From: Alteromonadales bacterium alter-6D02
GTDB lineage: Bacteria > Pseudomonadota > Gammaproteobacteria > Enterobacterales > Psychrobiaceae
Assembly: GCA_002835545.1 (NCBI GenBank)
Contig: PIZK01000003.1
Span: 62,001 to 126,000, forward strand
Length of the DNA: 64,000 nucleotides
Direction of reading: 5' to 3'
Shown: positions 47,434-62,360 of the stretch, piece by piece
How the letters are laid out: the number at the start of each line of letters is the position of its first letter
How positions within the stretch are numbered: position 1 is the first letter of the stretch
Position numbers and translations under genes: made by a program
Notes under the pieces: model-generated
Told to the model about the DNA's origin: nothing
The model's database searches: none
Seen by the model: only the letters and a program-made list of their open reading frames with translations

Positions 47434-48459
47434 GTGAACGATCTACTCAGTCAAGATGAAATCGATGCGTTACTTCATGGTGTTGACGATGTCGATGAAG
47501 ATGAAGTTGATGAAGGTGGCGGCGGTGATAGTGCTGCGGAGTATGATTTTTCTTCACAAGATCGCATCGTACGTGGTCGTATGCCAACGCTTGAAATGGT
47601 TAACGAGCGGTTTGCGAGACACTTGAGGATCAGTCTTTTCAACTTAATGCGTCGCACTACTGAAGTATCAATCAATGGTGTTCAGATGCTGAAGTTTGGC
47701 GAATATATTCATACATTGTTTGTGCCTACCAGTTTAAACATGGTCCGTTTTCGCCCTCTCAAAGGCACGGGCCTAATCACGCTAGAAGCACGTTTAGTGT
47801 TTATTTTAGTTGATAACTTTTTTGGTGGGGATGGCCGTTACCCTGCGAAAATAGAAGGCCGTGAATTTACGCCTACTGAGCGCCGAATTATTCAATTATT
47901 GTTAAAAATAGTTTTTGAAGACTATATGGAAGCTTGGGCTCCGGTGATGGATGTTGAGTTTGAGTATTTAGACTCTGAAGTGAACCCTTCAATGGCTAAT
48001 ATAGTGAGCCCGACAGAAGTTATTGTTGTATGCTCATTTCATATCGAACTCGATGGTGGTGGCGGAGATTTTCACATCGCATTGCCTTACTCGATGCTTG
48101 AGCCAATCCGAGAGTTGCTCGATGCTGGTGTACAAAGCGATAAAGAAGATACAGACCAACGCTGGAGTGCGGCACTAAAAGACGAGATCATGGATGTTGA
48201 AGTTGAGCTTGAAGCCAATCTTGGTGAAATTGATCTCACACTTCGTCAAATCATGGAAATGAAAGCGGGTGATGTGATCCCATTTGAAATGCCCGATGAG
48301 CTTGTTATAAAAGCCGAGGAGCTTCCTTCGTTTCGTGGTAAGCTAGGCCAAGTAAATGATAATTATGGTTTAAAGGTGACCTCAATTATTCCTCGGCCAG
48401 AATCGCAAAAATCAGAGTTTCAACTACTTCAACGAAAAGTGTCTGAAGATAAAGAATAG
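47434..48459 (+). CDS. fliM: Flagellar motor switch protein FliM
   Basis: FliM is the C-ring protein that binds phosphorylated CheY. The 341-residue product starts at GTG with the CheY-binding peptide MNDLLSQDEIDALLHG at residues 1-16, then an acidic linker, the middle CheC-like domain (FFGGDGRYPAKIEGREFTPT) and the C-terminal SpoA domain. The N-terminal peptide resembles four repeats found in CheA of this window. Confidence 0.97.
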   Translation: MNDLLSQDEIDALLHGVDDVDEDEVDEGGGGDSAAEYDFSSQDRIVRGRMPTLEMVNERFARHLRISLFNLMRRTTEVSINGVQMLKFGEYIHTLFVPTSLNMVRFRPLKGTGLITLEARLVFILVDNFFGGDGRYPAKIEGREFTPTERRIIQLLLKIVFEDYMEAWAPVMDVEFEYLDSEVNPSMANIVSPTEVIVVCSFHIELDGGGGDFHIALPYSMLEPIRELLDAGVQSDKEDTDQRWSAALKDEIMDVEVELEANLGEIDLTLRQIMEMKAGDVIPFEMPDELVIKAEELPSFRGKLGQVNDNYGLKVTSIIPRPESQKSEFQLLQRKVSEDKE

Positions 48460-57807: not shown

Positions 57808-58206
57808 GTGGAGAGCGTTTTGGATAAAAACATGAAAATACTGGTTGTTGATGATTTTTCAACAATGAGACGAATTATTAAGAACTTATTAAGAGATCTT
57901 GGTTTAACAAACACCCAAGAAGCTGATGATGGTGCGACTGCACTACCTATGCTTAAAGAAGGTGATTTTGACTTTGTAGTGACCGACTGGAATATGCCAG
58001 GTATGCAAGGAATTGATTTGTTAAAGCATATTCGTGCTGACGAAAAGCTAAAGCATCTACCTGTATTAATGGTAACGGCAGAAGCAAAACGTGAACAAAT
58101 TATTGCAGCGGCTCAAGCAGGTGTAAACGGATACATTGTTAAACCATTTACTGCTGGGACATTAAAAGAAAAGCTTGATAAGATTTTTCAACGAATTGAA
58201 TCTTAA
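57808..58206 (+). CDS. cheY: Chemotaxis response regulator CheY
   Basis: CheY carries the signal from CheA to FliM. With the GTG at 57808 it has 132 residues and an N-terminus like that of Vibrio CheY; a TTG at 57820 with GGAGAG six bases upstream is a serious alternative. The acidic pair [10 protein letters not shown], phospho-acceptor Asp60 ([12 protein letters not shown]), and IVKPFTA lysine are all present. Confidence 0.95.
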
Positions 58207-58226: not shown

Positions 58227-58964
58227 ATGACTGATAATGAGAATTCTTATATCTCGTTAGAGCAGGCTAAATCACTTGTTTCTGCGTTAGAGCAGGGGCA
58301 GGTTGCGTCTGCTAATGAAATTATTGAACAAGCTAGCCATAAAATGCAGCAAGACATCTTTGTTGGTGTCGGCAAGTTAACTCGTCAACTGCACGACTCA
58401 TTGAGTAATATGAGTATTGATGAGCGCTTTTCATCATTTGTTTCATCGTCATTGCCGGATGCAAAAGAACGTCTGTCTTATGTCGTTGAGATGACCTCTC
58501 AAGCGGCAAACCAAACAATGGATGCAGTTGATGAGTGTATTCCGTTAGCTCAGAAGCATCAGGCCACAGTTAATGAGATCTTACCATCTTGGGAGCGTTT
58601 GAAAGATTGTAAGATTAAAGTGGATGAGTTCAGGATGCTTTGTACTACTTTAGATAAGTATTTTTCAGAATCAGTTAACGATGCTGAACAATTAAATACC
58701 AAGCTAAATGACATTGTGCTCGCTCAAGGTTACCAAGATTTAACCGGGCAAGTACTTCACAAAATAACTGATTTAGTAAAAGATGTTGAAGAGAATTTGA
58801 TTGGTATTTTAAAGCTATTTGGTCATTACGATGACGAACAGCAATTAGATCGCGTTGATAACTGTATTGAAGCTGAAGGGCCCGTTGTCGCAAAATCAAA
58901 ACAGCATGATGTTGTTTCAGGACAAGATGATGTTGATGATTTGCTTTCTAGCCTAGGATTTTAA
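58227..58964 (+). CDS. cheZ: CheY-P phosphatase CheZ
   Basis: CheZ dephosphorylates CheY-P. The 245-residue helical protein has the catalytic motif QGYQDLTGQVLHKI with the key Gln, and the C-terminal CheY-docking helix DDVDDLLSSLGF. It is 20 bases after cheY and 13 before cheA. Confidence 0.95.
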   Translation: MTDNENSYISLEQAKSLVSALEQGQVASANEIIEQASHKMQQDIFVGVGKLTRQLHDSLSNMSIDERFSSFVSSSLPDAKERLSYVVEMTSQAANQTMDAVDECIPLAQKHQATVNEILPSWERLKDCKIKVDEFRMLCTTLDKYFSESVNDAEQLNTKLNDIVLAQGYQDLTGQVLHKITDLVKDVEENLIGILKLFGHYDDEQQLDRVDNCIEAEGPVVAKSKQHDVVSGQDDVDDLLSSLGF

Positions 58965-58977
58965 AAGGACGCAAACT

Positions 58978-61179
58978 ATGTCGTTTGATGTTGATGAAGA
59001 TATACTCCAAGATTTCCTGATAGAAGCGGGTGAAATATTAGAGCTTTTACAAGAACAGCTTGTTGAGCTAGAAAATAACCCGGAAGATTCTGATTTATTA
59101 AATGCTATTTTCCGAGGCTTTCACACCATCAAAGGTGGTGCAGGCTTTATGTCGTTAAAAGAGCTTGTTGATGTTTGTCACGGCGCTGAAAATATCTTTG
59201 ATTTGTTAAGAACAGGTCAACGAAGTGTCACGCCAGAGTTGATGGATGTCATTCTTGAGGGTCTTGATACTGTCAACGACATGTTTACCTTGGTTAAAGC
59301 ACGCGAAGAATTAAGCCCTGCGGAGCCTCGGTTACTTGAAGAACTTGAAAGGCTAAGCAAACCGGAAAGTGCTGAAGAGCCAGCACCGGAACCAGAGCCT
59401 GAACCTGAACCTGAACCTGAACCTGAACCAGAGCCGGAGACAGTTGCTGTCGAAAGTAATGGCGATGAAATAACTGACGATGAATTTGAAGCATTATTAG
59501 ATGAGCTAGAGGCAGGTAAGAAACAACCTATCGTTAAGGATGAGTCCACTGATGTTCCTGCTTCTGATGACGAAATTACCGATGATGAATTTGAGGCCTT
59601 ACTCGATGAGCTTCATGGCGCTGGCTCTCCAACTGCTGCTAAAGCTTCAGTCACTCCAGCATCGTCGGACTCCGAAGAAATTTCAGATGAAGAGTTTGAA
59701 GCTTTCCTCGATCAGCTTCATGGTGAAAAGGGTTCGCCATCTTCAGTTGAAAATACTGTAAACCAGGTACACACCAAGCCTGTTGCTGAATCAGCGAAAT
59801 CAAAGACAGATGATGAAATCGATGATGCAGAATTTGAAGCACTACTCGATGAGCTACAGGCGGCTAAAAAGAACGAACCAACACCTAAAGCTATTTCGCA
59901 AGCGACACCCACTGTAGCAGCACCTTCACCAGCCCCGGCACCGAAAAAGGCTCCTGTGGCCGCTGCTCCGAAGAAAGCATCCGCAACTGCGCCGAAAAAA
60001 GCAGCTGCTACACCACAAGCAGAAACAACCGTTCGCGTTGATACCGCAAGGCTCGATGAGATCATGAATATGGTTGGTGAGCTAGTATTAGTTCGGAATC
60101 GGTTAGTTAGCCTTGGTTTAACCAGTGGCGATGAGGAAATGTCTAAAGCGGTTGCTAATCTCGATAATGTTACAGCTGATCTACAAGGGTCAGTGATGAA
60201 AACTCGCATGCAGCCGATTAAGAAAGTTTTTGGGCGCTTCCCTCGAGTCGTTCGAGATATGGCGAGAACACTTAAAAAAGATATCACTCTCACGATGGAG
60301 GGTGAAGATACCGATCTAGATAAGAATTTAGTTGAAGCGCTTGCAGACCCGCTAGTTCACTTAGTAAGAAACTCGGTCGACCATGGTATTGAGATGCCGG
60401 ATGATCGTGAAGCTAATGGTAAACCACGTAACGGTACTGTCGTATTATCAGCCTCACAAGAGGGTGACCATATTTTGCTCGCCATCACTGATGACGGTGC
60501 TGGTATGGATGCTGAAAAGTTAAAATCAATCGCAATTTCTCGTGGTGTACTTGATGAAGAGTCTGCTGCACGGATGAGTGATGAAGATGCTTATGCATTA
60601 ATTTTTGCGCCCGGTTTTTCAACCAAGACTGAAATCTCTGATATTTCTGGTCGCGGTGTGGGGATGGATGTTGTTAAAACAAAGATTACCCAGCTTAATG
60701 GTACCGTTAAGATTCAATCTGAAAAAGGTGTGGGGACGACATTAAAAATCACAGTGCCATTAACATTAGCAATCATGCCGACACTAATGGTTCAATTGGG
60801 CGAGCAAACCTTTGCGTTGCCTTTAGCAGCGGTCAACGAAATATTTAATCTTGACCTAACTAAAACAAACATTGTTGATGGTCGTAAGGTTGTTGTAGTC
60901 CGTGATAAGGCAATTCCATTGTTTTATCTCGATGAATGGTTAAGTAAAGGCTATGACCCTAGTCACGAAAGAACAGAAGGGCATGTTGTTATTGTCCAAA
61001 TTGGTCAACAAGACGTTGGCTTCGTGGTTGATGGGTTAATTGGTCAAGAAGAAGTGGTTATCAAGCCATTGGGTGCATTGCTTCATGGAACTCCAGGAAT
61101 ATCTGGTGCAACAATAACAAGTGACGGTAGTATCGCCTTGATTGTTGATATAGGAAGTTTATTAAAACAATATGCATAA
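58978..61179 (+). CDS. cheA: Chemotaxis histidine kinase CheA with four acidic repeats in place of P2
   Basis: The 733-residue kinase has a P1 domain (1-~110) with His49 in FRGFHTIKGGAGFM, then about 235 residues of linker, then P3 dimerisation (TARLDEIMNMVGELVLVRNR), P4 ATPase (HLVRNSVDHGIE, DDGAGMD, GRGVGMDVVK) and P5 CheW-like domains. The linker contains a Pro-Glu tract, four copies of a (D/E)EIxDxEFEALLDEL motif starting at residues 163, 198, 233 and 279, and an Ala/Pro/Lys tract. I see no recognisable P2 CheY-binding domain. Confidence 0.94.
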   Translation: MSFDVDEDILQDFLIEAGEILELLQEQLVELENNPEDSDLLNAIFRGFHTIKGGAGFMSLKELVDVCHGAENIFDLLRTGQRSVTPELMDVILEGLDTVNDMFTLVKAREELSPAEPRLLEELERLSKPESAEEPAPEPEPEPEPEPEPEPEPETVAVESNGDEITDDEFEALLDELEAGKKQPIVKDESTDVPASDDEITDDEFEALLDELHGAGSPTAAKASVTPASSDSEEISDEEFEAFLDQLHGEKGSPSSVENTVNQVHTKPVAESAKSKTDDEIDDAEFEALLDELQAAKKNEPTPKAISQATPTVAAPSPAPAPKKAPVAAAPKKASATAPKKAAATPQAETTVRVDTARLDEIMNMVGELVLVRNRLVSLGLTSGDEEMSKAVANLDNVTADLQGSVMKTRMQPIKKVFGRFPRVVRDMARTLKKDITLTMEGEDTDLDKNLVEALADPLVHLVRNSVDHGIEMPDDREANGKPRNGTVVLSASQEGDHILLAITDDGAGMDAEKLKSIAISRGVLDEESAARMSDEDAYALIFAPGFSTKTEISDISGRGVGMDVVKTKITQLNGTVKIQSEKGVGTTLKITVPLTLAIMPTLMVQLGEQTFALPLAAVNEIFNLDLTKTNIVDGRKVVVVRDKAIPLFYLDEWLSKGYDPSHERTEGHVVIVQIGQQDVGFVVDGLIGQEEVVIKPLGALLHGTPGISGATITSDGSIALIVDIGSLLKQYA
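59386..59439 (+). repeat. Hexanucleotide Pro-Glu tract inside cheA
   Basis: Four perfect GAACCT units (59401-59424) are flanked by near-identical variants (GAGCCT, GAACCA, GAGCCG), encoding alternating Glu-Pro. Slippage by whole units would change linker length without breaking the frame. Confidence 0.75.
59464..59857 (+). repeat. Four in-frame repeats in the CheA linker
   Basis: The coded unit is (D/E)EI(T/S/D)D(D/E/A)EFEA(L/F)LD(E/Q)L, followed in copies 2 and 3 by HG. Copies start at CheA residues 163, 198, 233 and 279. DNA of the copies has drifted by synonymous changes, so they are old. Confidence 0.8.
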
Positions 61180-61226: not shown

Positions 61227-62360
61227 ATGGGCATCAAAGTATTAATCGTTGATGATTCACATTTTTTTAGACGATGTATTGGTGAGATTGTCACCAAAGC
61301 CGATGGTTTAGAAGTACTTGACTATGCAAAGAACGGTCAAGAAGGTGTTGAAAAGGCGTTATCGTTAAAGCCGGACGTAGTGATGATGGATATCGAGATG
61401 CCTGTTAAGAATGGCATTGATGCGACTCGTGAGATAATGTCTAAACAGCCAATGCCAATTCTAATGTTTTCATCGTTGACCCATGAAGGAGCGAAAGCCA
61501 CATTAGATGCCCTTGATGCCGGTGCAGCTGACTTTTTACCTAAAAAGTTTGAAGAAATAGCTGGTTCAGGAAAGGTCGCTTCAGAGCTAATTACCAAAAG
61601 AATCAAAGCCATTGCAAGACGTACCATTCGAACACGTCCTGCAGCTAGCCCTGCATCAAGACCGCCACCTAGTTCGTTACGGTCTACGACTACAACCCCA
61701 CTAAAGCGCCCACTAGAACGAACCCCGACGACTAATCGGGTCAATAGCCGAGCCGTTGACCGTAATGCTAGCGTTACTAAAGCGAGTGGAAAACGATATA
61801 ACATGCTTGCGATAGCATCGTCTACTGGTGGTCCGGTAGCACTCCAAGCGGTACTGAGCAAGTTGCCAGCAAATTTCCCTTATCCGATCTTGCTTGTTCA
61901 ACATATGCCAGGGGCTTTTACAGGTGCCTTTGCTGAAAGGCTTGACCGTTTGTGTAAAATTAAAGTTAAAGAAGCCACCAATGGTGACATTGTTAAGCCT
62001 GGTCATGCATATCTTGCCCCTGGTGGTATGCAGATGCTTTTTGAGCGAGGTAACCGACTTAAAGTGACTGAAGGCCCTTCCCATTTAAACTACAAACCTT
62101 GCGCTGACGTTAGCTTTGCTTCTATCGCTAAAAATCATGAAGGGAATGTCATGACCTTAGTACTTACTGGTATGGGGGCTGATGGCTGTGATGGGGCTAA
62201 GTTATTAAATACCAAAGGAGCAACGGTCTGGGCGCAAGACGAAGCGACCTCTGTTGTCTATGGTATGCCTCAAGCGGTAAAACGTGCTGGATTAACTAGC
62301 AAAGTTTTACCGCTTGAGACCATTGGTGAAAGTTTAGTAAAAGAGATGCTGCATGGATAG
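61227..62360 (+). CDS. cheB: Chemoreceptor glutamate methylesterase CheB
   Basis: The 377-residue protein has an N-terminal receiver domain with Asp55 (VVMMDIEMPVKNG), an Arg/Thr/Pro-rich linker of about 60 residues, and a C-terminal methylesterase domain with ASSTGGP (Ser), VQHMPG (His) and GMGADG (Asp). It acts opposite to CheR. The stop overlaps the next gene by eight bases. Confidence 0.96.
   Translation: MGIKVLIVDDSHFFRRCIGEIVTKADGLEVLDYAKNGQEGVEKALSLKPDVVMMDIEMPVKNGIDATREIMSKQPMPILMFSSLTHEGAKATLDALDAGAADFLPKKFEEIAGSGKVASELITKRIKAIARRTIRTRPAASPASRPPPSSLRSTTTTPLKRPLERTPTTNRVNSRAVDRNASVTKASGKRYNMLAIASSTGGPVALQAVLSKLPANFPYPILLVQHMPGAFTGAFAERLDRLCKIKVKEATNGDIVKPGHAYLAPGGMQMLFERGNRLKVTEGPSHLNYKPCADVSFASIAKNHEGNVMTLVLTGMGADGCDGAKLLNTKGATVWAQDEATSVVYGMPQAVKRAGLTSKVLPLETIGESLVKEMLHG

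Follow-up and report, generated by a model that had tools for sequence, protein, structure and literature searches.

The CheA kinase encoded in the window, by which we mean the whole analysed stretch of 64,000 nucleotides, has no P2 domain that could be found between P1 and P3, and carries in that place four copies of a short motif resembling the CheY-binding motif of FliM. Docking of response regulators such as CheY by this array of helical motifs is the likeliest main function of the repeats, with a probability of about 0.6 on the sequences and structure models considered. The observations beneath this reading are the repeats themselves, their conservation, their helicity in the models, the lack of any sign of P2, the match to FliM, and their persistence in genomes without detectable ParP; from these we infer CheY as the ligand, its binding by the repeats and the multivalency of the array. 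Most of the relatives in the set analysed share this design, which may show how such kinases hold CheY.

Domain layout and linker of CheA

The features referred to in the text are the following.

47446..47475, + strand: CheY-binding motif of FliM, LSQDEIDALL, within fliM (47434-48459)
57808..58206, + strand: cheY, encoding the ligand proposed here; its alpha4-beta5-alpha5 region is conserved among relatives
58923..58961, + strand: C-terminal tail of CheZ, QDDVDDLLSSLGF
58978..61179, + strand: cheA, 733 aa; P1 (Hpt), repeat-bearing linker, P3, P4 and P5, with P2 not found
58999..59274, + strand: P1 domain of CheA, residues 8-99 (Pfam Hpt)
59464..59520, + strand: repeat 1, DEITDDEFEALLDELEAGK, residues 163-181; predicted helix 167-179
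59569..59625, + strand: repeat 2, DEITDDEFEALLDELHGAG, residues 198-216; predicted helix 202-213
59674..59730, + strand: repeat 3, EEISDEEFEAFLDQLHGEK, residues 233-251; predicted helix 237-248
59812..59868, + strand: repeat 4, DEIDDAEFEALLDELQAAK, residues 279-297; predicted helix 283-297
60025..61170, + strand: P3, P4 and P5 of CheA, residues 350-409, 457-596 and 603-731 (Pfam H-kinase_dim, HATPase_c and CheW)
61227..62360, + strand: cheB, receiver and methylesterase, second possible ligand (exploratory covariation)

The gene order around this CheA is presumably cheYZAB-motCD-parC-parP-cheW, and parC- and parP-like genes were found downstream of cheA (locus L003). Over the best segment, the protein shares 56-73% identity with the CheA proteins of 80 named loci (the best 80 of 593 confirmed), Vibrio, Pseudomonas and Shewanella being among them. 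Gene order and identity to named loci suggest that it belongs to the F6 class. The genome also encodes a second CheA (695 aa; L001/L004, G000 contig C4, around 51567), which adjoins a CheY-like gene, contains a P2-like domain and is without repeats. It constitutes a natural control within one cell.

The initial annotation had described four repeats between P1 and P3 within 59464-59857 (CheA residues 163-293), and the linker does contain four copies of a 19-residue motif. Its proposed consensus, DEI-x-D-x-EFEALLDELHG, fits repeat 2 fully, while the other three differ from it in the tail or at one to two core positions. When the whole genome was searched in six frames with a model of the motif, four sites were obtained at E ≤ 2.7e-4, all of them in CheA, and the next had an E of 1.25. 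Among 4,220 shuffled linkers the highest score was 1.2 bits, far below the threshold of 12 used for repeats. One repeat, taken as query against solved structures, gave no match at E 10.

P2 is a folded domain, and the claim that no such fold is recognisable in this CheA is supported by Pfam, AlphaFold, Foldseek and a local P2 model. Pfam at E 10 gave no P2 family for CheA, the matches between Hpt and H-kinase_dim being below cut-offs and to unrelated families, and PF07194 was absent from the genome; this is weak evidence, since in two other CheA proteins considered here, which are among the five seeds of the local model, a P2-like domain likewise goes unseen by Pfam. These seeds were P2-like domains of other CheA proteins in these loci, picked by eye and including that of the second CheA. 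The local model matched no motif-bearing CheA; its five strong matches were its own seeds, so that its reach to other P2 domains may be limited, and the two remaining ones were short chance frames (E 1.1 and 3.2).

The structure of CheA residues 1-361 was predicted with AlphaFold from 44 sequences (mean pLDDT 71.5, pTM 0.45). P1 was modelled as helices (residues 7-126) with a pLDDT of 94-97 in most blocks, and beyond residue 126 the model contains one helix per repeat, apart from a turn at 130-132. In ten-residue blocks, the pLDDT is 71-88 on the repeats and 43-60 between them, and no strand is present anywhere in the model. A Pseudomonas orthologue (L077, 30 sequences) was likewise modelled with helices on its four repeats (155-165, 184-195, 226-237 and 271-281), two further helices (131-134 and 348-357) and no strands. 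The fold search for a hidden P2 that the initial annotation had proposed gave, with the first model as query, 14 Foldseek matches at E ≤ 0.001, which are CheA P1 domains and designed four-helix bundles. The top match, 2lp4 (P1-CheY/P2), includes a P2 as well; it superposes with an rmsd of 20.8 over 233 columns, and is therefore read as a match to P1 only. A hidden P2 in the linker was rejected on the combined results of Pfam, the local P2 model, the two AlphaFold models and Foldseek. Outside the repeats, the linker (126-349) comprises 148 residues, of which 79.7% are P, A, E, K, S or T, and its content of ILVMFWYC is 9.5%, against 38.4% in P1. According to the models, it is probably a disordered, low-confidence tether with four isolated helices on the repeats.

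The motif in related CheA proteins

A class-wide search found relatives of CheA in 290 of 369 genomes. The set examined, taking the best CheA per locus, comprised 211 proteins: 30 from the class-wide search, 80 from named loci (the best 80 of 593 confirmed), 100 further ones (from 120 matches listed without a locus, of which 20 were not used) and this genome's own second CheA. For scoring, a position matrix was derived from 165 distinct repeats, which had been collected from the named loci by a pattern requiring the central F. At least one repeat (1-8 copies) is present in 202 of the 211, including CheA from Vibrio, Pseudomonas, Shewanella and Pseudoalteromonas, counts which are not natural frequencies since the set was ranked by likeness to this CheA. 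The comparison of the linker across relatives, which had been asked for in the initial annotation, indicates that the array presented there as a trait of this CheA is family-wide instead.

The number of copies is 2-4 in the 30 class-wide proteins and 3-5 in the best 80 of 593. The 100 further CheA proteins have none (8 proteins), one (7), two (45), three (38), four (1) or eight (1), and the median spacing between repeats is 42 residues (24-83, n 375). The nine proteins without repeats are the second CheA of this genome, seven less similar ones (L207-L213), and that of L204, which has two degenerate copies. The motif model was also run on 249 genomes from across the phylum and had matches in 31; the frames matched are 625-870 aa long, thus CheA-like by size alone. 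The exceptions are a weak one in G421 (573 aa, E 0.006) and two in G482, which lie on different contigs and are 226 and 531 aa long.

Some loci deserve separate mention. The most copies seen, eight, are in an open frame of 1073 aa (L156, genome G033). In L204 (genome G025), the CheA whose repeats have decayed occurs together with another that has a P2-like domain, and the CheY of this locus differs at K91, N104 and K117. Two of the less similar CheA proteins (L208:3526-5751 and L208:13537-14799) have arrays of GFGFFD-type motifs between P1 and P3, five in the first and three in the second as counted by eye. Motif arrays in place of P2 may have arisen more than once.

That many CheA proteins are without P2 is already in print (PMC4742279, in its accessible text). 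The motif array is apparently the new part, no description of it having been found in the literature searched, which was thin in subscription papers and did not include preprints. Among the accessible passages of other sources, a review mentions a P2 domain in Vibrio CheA (PMC7534058) and P2 is assigned in the CheA of Pseudomonas putida (PMC11978298); the Vibrio and Pseudomonas CheA proteins of our set have the motif array and no sign of P2.

Likeness to FliM and the partner of the repeats

The N-terminus of FliM, (V)NDLLSQDEIDALLHG, and the C-terminus of CheZ, QDDVDDLLSSLGF, are as the initial annotation had given them. The excerpts available from PMC5677366 describe LSQxEIDxLL as a widely conserved CheY-binding motif of FliM, and report that changing its I-D pair abolishes binding of the CheY-like protein CleA. 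When windows were scored against LSQDEIDALL with BLOSUM62, the top window of the entire protein coincided with a repeat, without any shift in register, in 200 of the 202 motif-bearing CheA, and 558 of 577 repeat positions were among the top windows. The best matches outside CheA, among 8,775 six-frame open reading frames of at least 100 aa in these loci, include FliM, many CheZ tails and a few unrelated frames. A relaxed pattern, [LIVM][ST]xxE[ILVMF][DE]xLL, which was widened after the repeats were known, has 466 matches in CheA linkers (194 of 211 proteins), none outside the linker in the 210 CheA checked, and none in 10,550 shuffled linkers. It has four in 8,373 other six-frame frames (1.78 million residues), of which two are FliM. 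It misses all 191 CheZ, although CheZ is a known CheY ligand. In this CheA, repeats 1 and 2 match the relaxed pattern and repeats 3 and 4 are each one residue short of it; no repeat matches the strict LSQxEIDxLL, the Q being absent in all of them.

A profile built from eight FliM N-termini finds FliM in this genome at E ≤ 10, and neither the repeats nor CheZ. The suggestion that the motifs were copied in style from FliM is thus not borne out, and convergence is as likely as copying. The likeness to CheZ that had also been pointed out exists and is much weaker: with the CheZ tail as the model, the best window is a repeat in 63 of the 202 CheA, against 200 for FliM. What stands of the proposal that the array captures CheY in place of P2 is the P2 not found, the four helix-forming motifs and a FliM match far above background; an origin from FliM is no likelier than convergence, and the uniqueness to this protein does not stand.

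If the array does dock CheY, the P2 docking domain would have given way in this class of CheA to a disordered tether bearing short linear motifs that form helices. Each repeat would fold as an amphipathic helix of 12-15 residues, with an [IL]-[ST]-x-x-E-F/I cap at its start, and would dock on the alpha4-beta5-alpha5 face of CheY, or possibly on the receiver of CheB. Docking beside phosphorylated P1 would raise the local concentration of response regulator, in a multivalent manner. Kinase and motor would then be rivals for CheY, both using one type of peptide, the copy number would be an evolvable dial for docking strength, and the P2-less CheA proteins noted in the consulted part of PMC4742279 would have one explanation.

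The CheY proteins of these loci are compatible with such a face. In 191 of them (E. coli numbering), I95, Y106 and K119 are present in all, Q94 in 187, V103 in 189 and K117 in 164. As far as the accessible text of PMC7184735 goes, a CheY taken over from F6 by F7 acquired the P2-facing changes R92K, Q94N and V103A, together with K117E in the FliM-binding helix. If F6 CheA is without P2, as appears here, these P2-facing positions must meet something else in F6 systems, and the repeats would be their natural candidate partner. In an excerpt of PMC7355467, phosphorylation is stated to raise the affinity of CheY for the FliM peptide about 20-fold; a plain FliM mimic on the kinase would hence hold the product, which sits badly with a role in docking the substrate. 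The preference may be shifted by the F-E pair and the tail, in which the repeat differs from FliM, or the array may store CheY~P.

The partner was also approached through covariation. The divergence of whole repeats follows the CheY face no further than phylogeny (n 184, partial r 0.085, 12/300 permutations; 0.19 for the rest of CheY), and there is little to correlate because this face is almost invariant. In the ParP-bearing genomes only (n 135), the value is 0.194 with ParP and 0.045 with the CheY face. The initial annotation had left out ParP and the LID, the known interaction of this region in Vibrio CheA. The LID is the ParP-binding segment, placed between P2 and P3 and limited to species with ParC/ParP in the accessible parts of PMC7534058 and PMC5706961.

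It is possible, and we put it forward tentatively, that the repeat has two parts, a FliM-like core docking CheY or CheB and a D-x-L-H-G-x-G tail docking ParP, so that one tunable array of 1-8 copies both feeds the messengers and moors the array at the pole, in place of P2, while other motif arrays (GFGFFD) dock in other CheA classes. Half-repeat covariation is a lead for this model and not proof: it is exploratory, with small effects, 18 and 10 comparisons, and phylogeny corrected by distance alone. The tail has a partial r of 0.210 with the AIF domain of ParP given CheA P3-P5 (n 131, 0/200 permutations), which is 0.188 given four other protein regions too, and 0.105 with the CheB receiver. 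For the core (n 131), the values are 0.202 with the CheB receiver, 0.182 with the CheB effector half, so that the two halves are hardly separated, and 0.155 with ParP; given the other four regions, that for the receiver is 0.104. A smaller run, with 38 CheB obtained by a strict pattern and 26 tested, gave the opposite ranking for the core (ParP 0.337, receiver 0.253). Covariation therefore links the tail weakly to ParP, and suggests no link specific to CheY.

We regard it as rather unlikely that the repeats are simply the LID, binding the CheW-like AIF domain of ParP and tethering the array to the pole, with CheY engaged via P1 alone. The repeats lie, as the LID does, between P1 and P3 of a CheA whose gene has parC and parP nearby, ParP is encoded in the fetched stretch of 142 loci, all of them motif-bearing, and in ParP-bearing genomes the divergence of the repeats, and of the tail above all, tracks the AIF domain best. 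However, 31 motif-bearing loci are without ParP in the stretch. Twenty of their genomes were searched whole, which revealed ParP elsewhere in four and nothing above 37.6 bits in the remaining 16; the search also covered G025 and three comparison genomes, and recovered the known positive G197. Judged by gene order, the absence is fairly firm in 11 of the 16 and ambiguous in the other five. Of the 11, six have no clear parC beside cheA (L131, L167, L181, L197, L199 and L200), and in five the gene after parC is cheW, so that a ParP-like gene is missing from the interval (L141, L151, L163, L172 and L191). A very divergent ParP could escape detection in these 11 genomes. Their weak matches score higher as CheW than as ParP, except for one frame of 165 residues in G267, the genome of L151 (28.3 bits as ParP, 13.1 as CheW), which might be a diverged ParP.

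The FliM-like core is as good in these 11 genomes as in 39 divergence-matched ParP-bearing ones (medians 35.2 and 35.8, p 0.51). As the LID reading would have it, they score lower for the best tail (17.8 bits, 25.3 in the matched genomes; p 0.009 without correction, two of the ParP-less genomes sharing a genus), though not for the mean tail (17.5 against 17.9, p 0.22). In L181 and L197, cores of the ITDDEFEALL or ITDEEFE-LLL-like type are kept and the tail is lost. Since the repeats persist where ParP is not detectable, the LID is unlikely to be the whole story, and it leaves the match to FliM unexplained.

Two further observations were made on ParP. Many of its N-termini (e.g. L003:2876-3631) carry a short AL..YLDALLxE-like motif, present in loose form in 92 of 142, at the end said to bind ParC. 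ParP is encoded beside cheA in Pseudomonas loci such as L077 and L096, P. aeruginosa not being among those examined; that species is stated to be without related genes in the available text of PMC12410967.

The [IL][ST]xxE[FI] pattern at the start of the repeat is a generic helix cap with a hydrophobic staple, and is common. The C-terminus of CheW, KLLSDDEWDDMASF (L003:3652-4152), has the same kind of helix start as the CheA repeat, and a similar tail is found in 102 of 152 CheW from these loci. The match to FliM may consequently be partly generic, and the repeats could serve another partner (CheV, CheB only, the protein's own P4/P5, or array assembly), the likeness to FliM being mere helix capping. 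Of the five regions compared, the CheB receiver covaries most with the core, by a slight margin (0.202), which would fit this. We consider it improbable, because the match runs past the cap (E-[FI]-[DE]-x-L-L) and is as rare outside CheA as described above. Least credible by far is a linker that is a mere spacer with repeats as functionless products of slippage: the rest of the linker is indeed of low complexity and variable length, but repeats 1 and 2 share all of 15 residues while 8 of the 15 codons differ synonymously, as expected of old copies under selection on the protein, and this codon pattern largely refutes it. The retention of the motif in 202 of 211 CheA also speaks against it.

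Comparison with known systems

The docking array that we favour can be set against four known elements. It shares with the P2 domain of CheA (E. coli and Thermotoga types) the place between P1 and P3 and the proposed job; P2 is a folded domain, whereas this linker is predicted to be a disordered tether with separate helices, and no match between the two was found in sequence or in fold. With the LID of Vibrio CheA it has in common the region, the kind of CheA and the position beside parC and parP. The LID is defined by ParP binding and is compared here by its description in the accessible sources, and the repeats occur also without detectable ParP. The tail of CheZ shares with the repeat an acidic - hydrophobic - acidic - x - L - L - x - x - L order, which is a weak likeness. 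With the FliM motif the repeat shares the order hydrophobic - S/T - x - x - E - hydrophobic - acidic - x - L - L, aligned in a single register, and in both proteins the short motif lies on a flexible segment. The CheA repeat differs from it in being present in 1-8 copies, in having mostly F-E for I-D and D for Q, in an extra conserved turn, D-x-L-H-G-x-G, and in its location on the kinase rather than on the motor.
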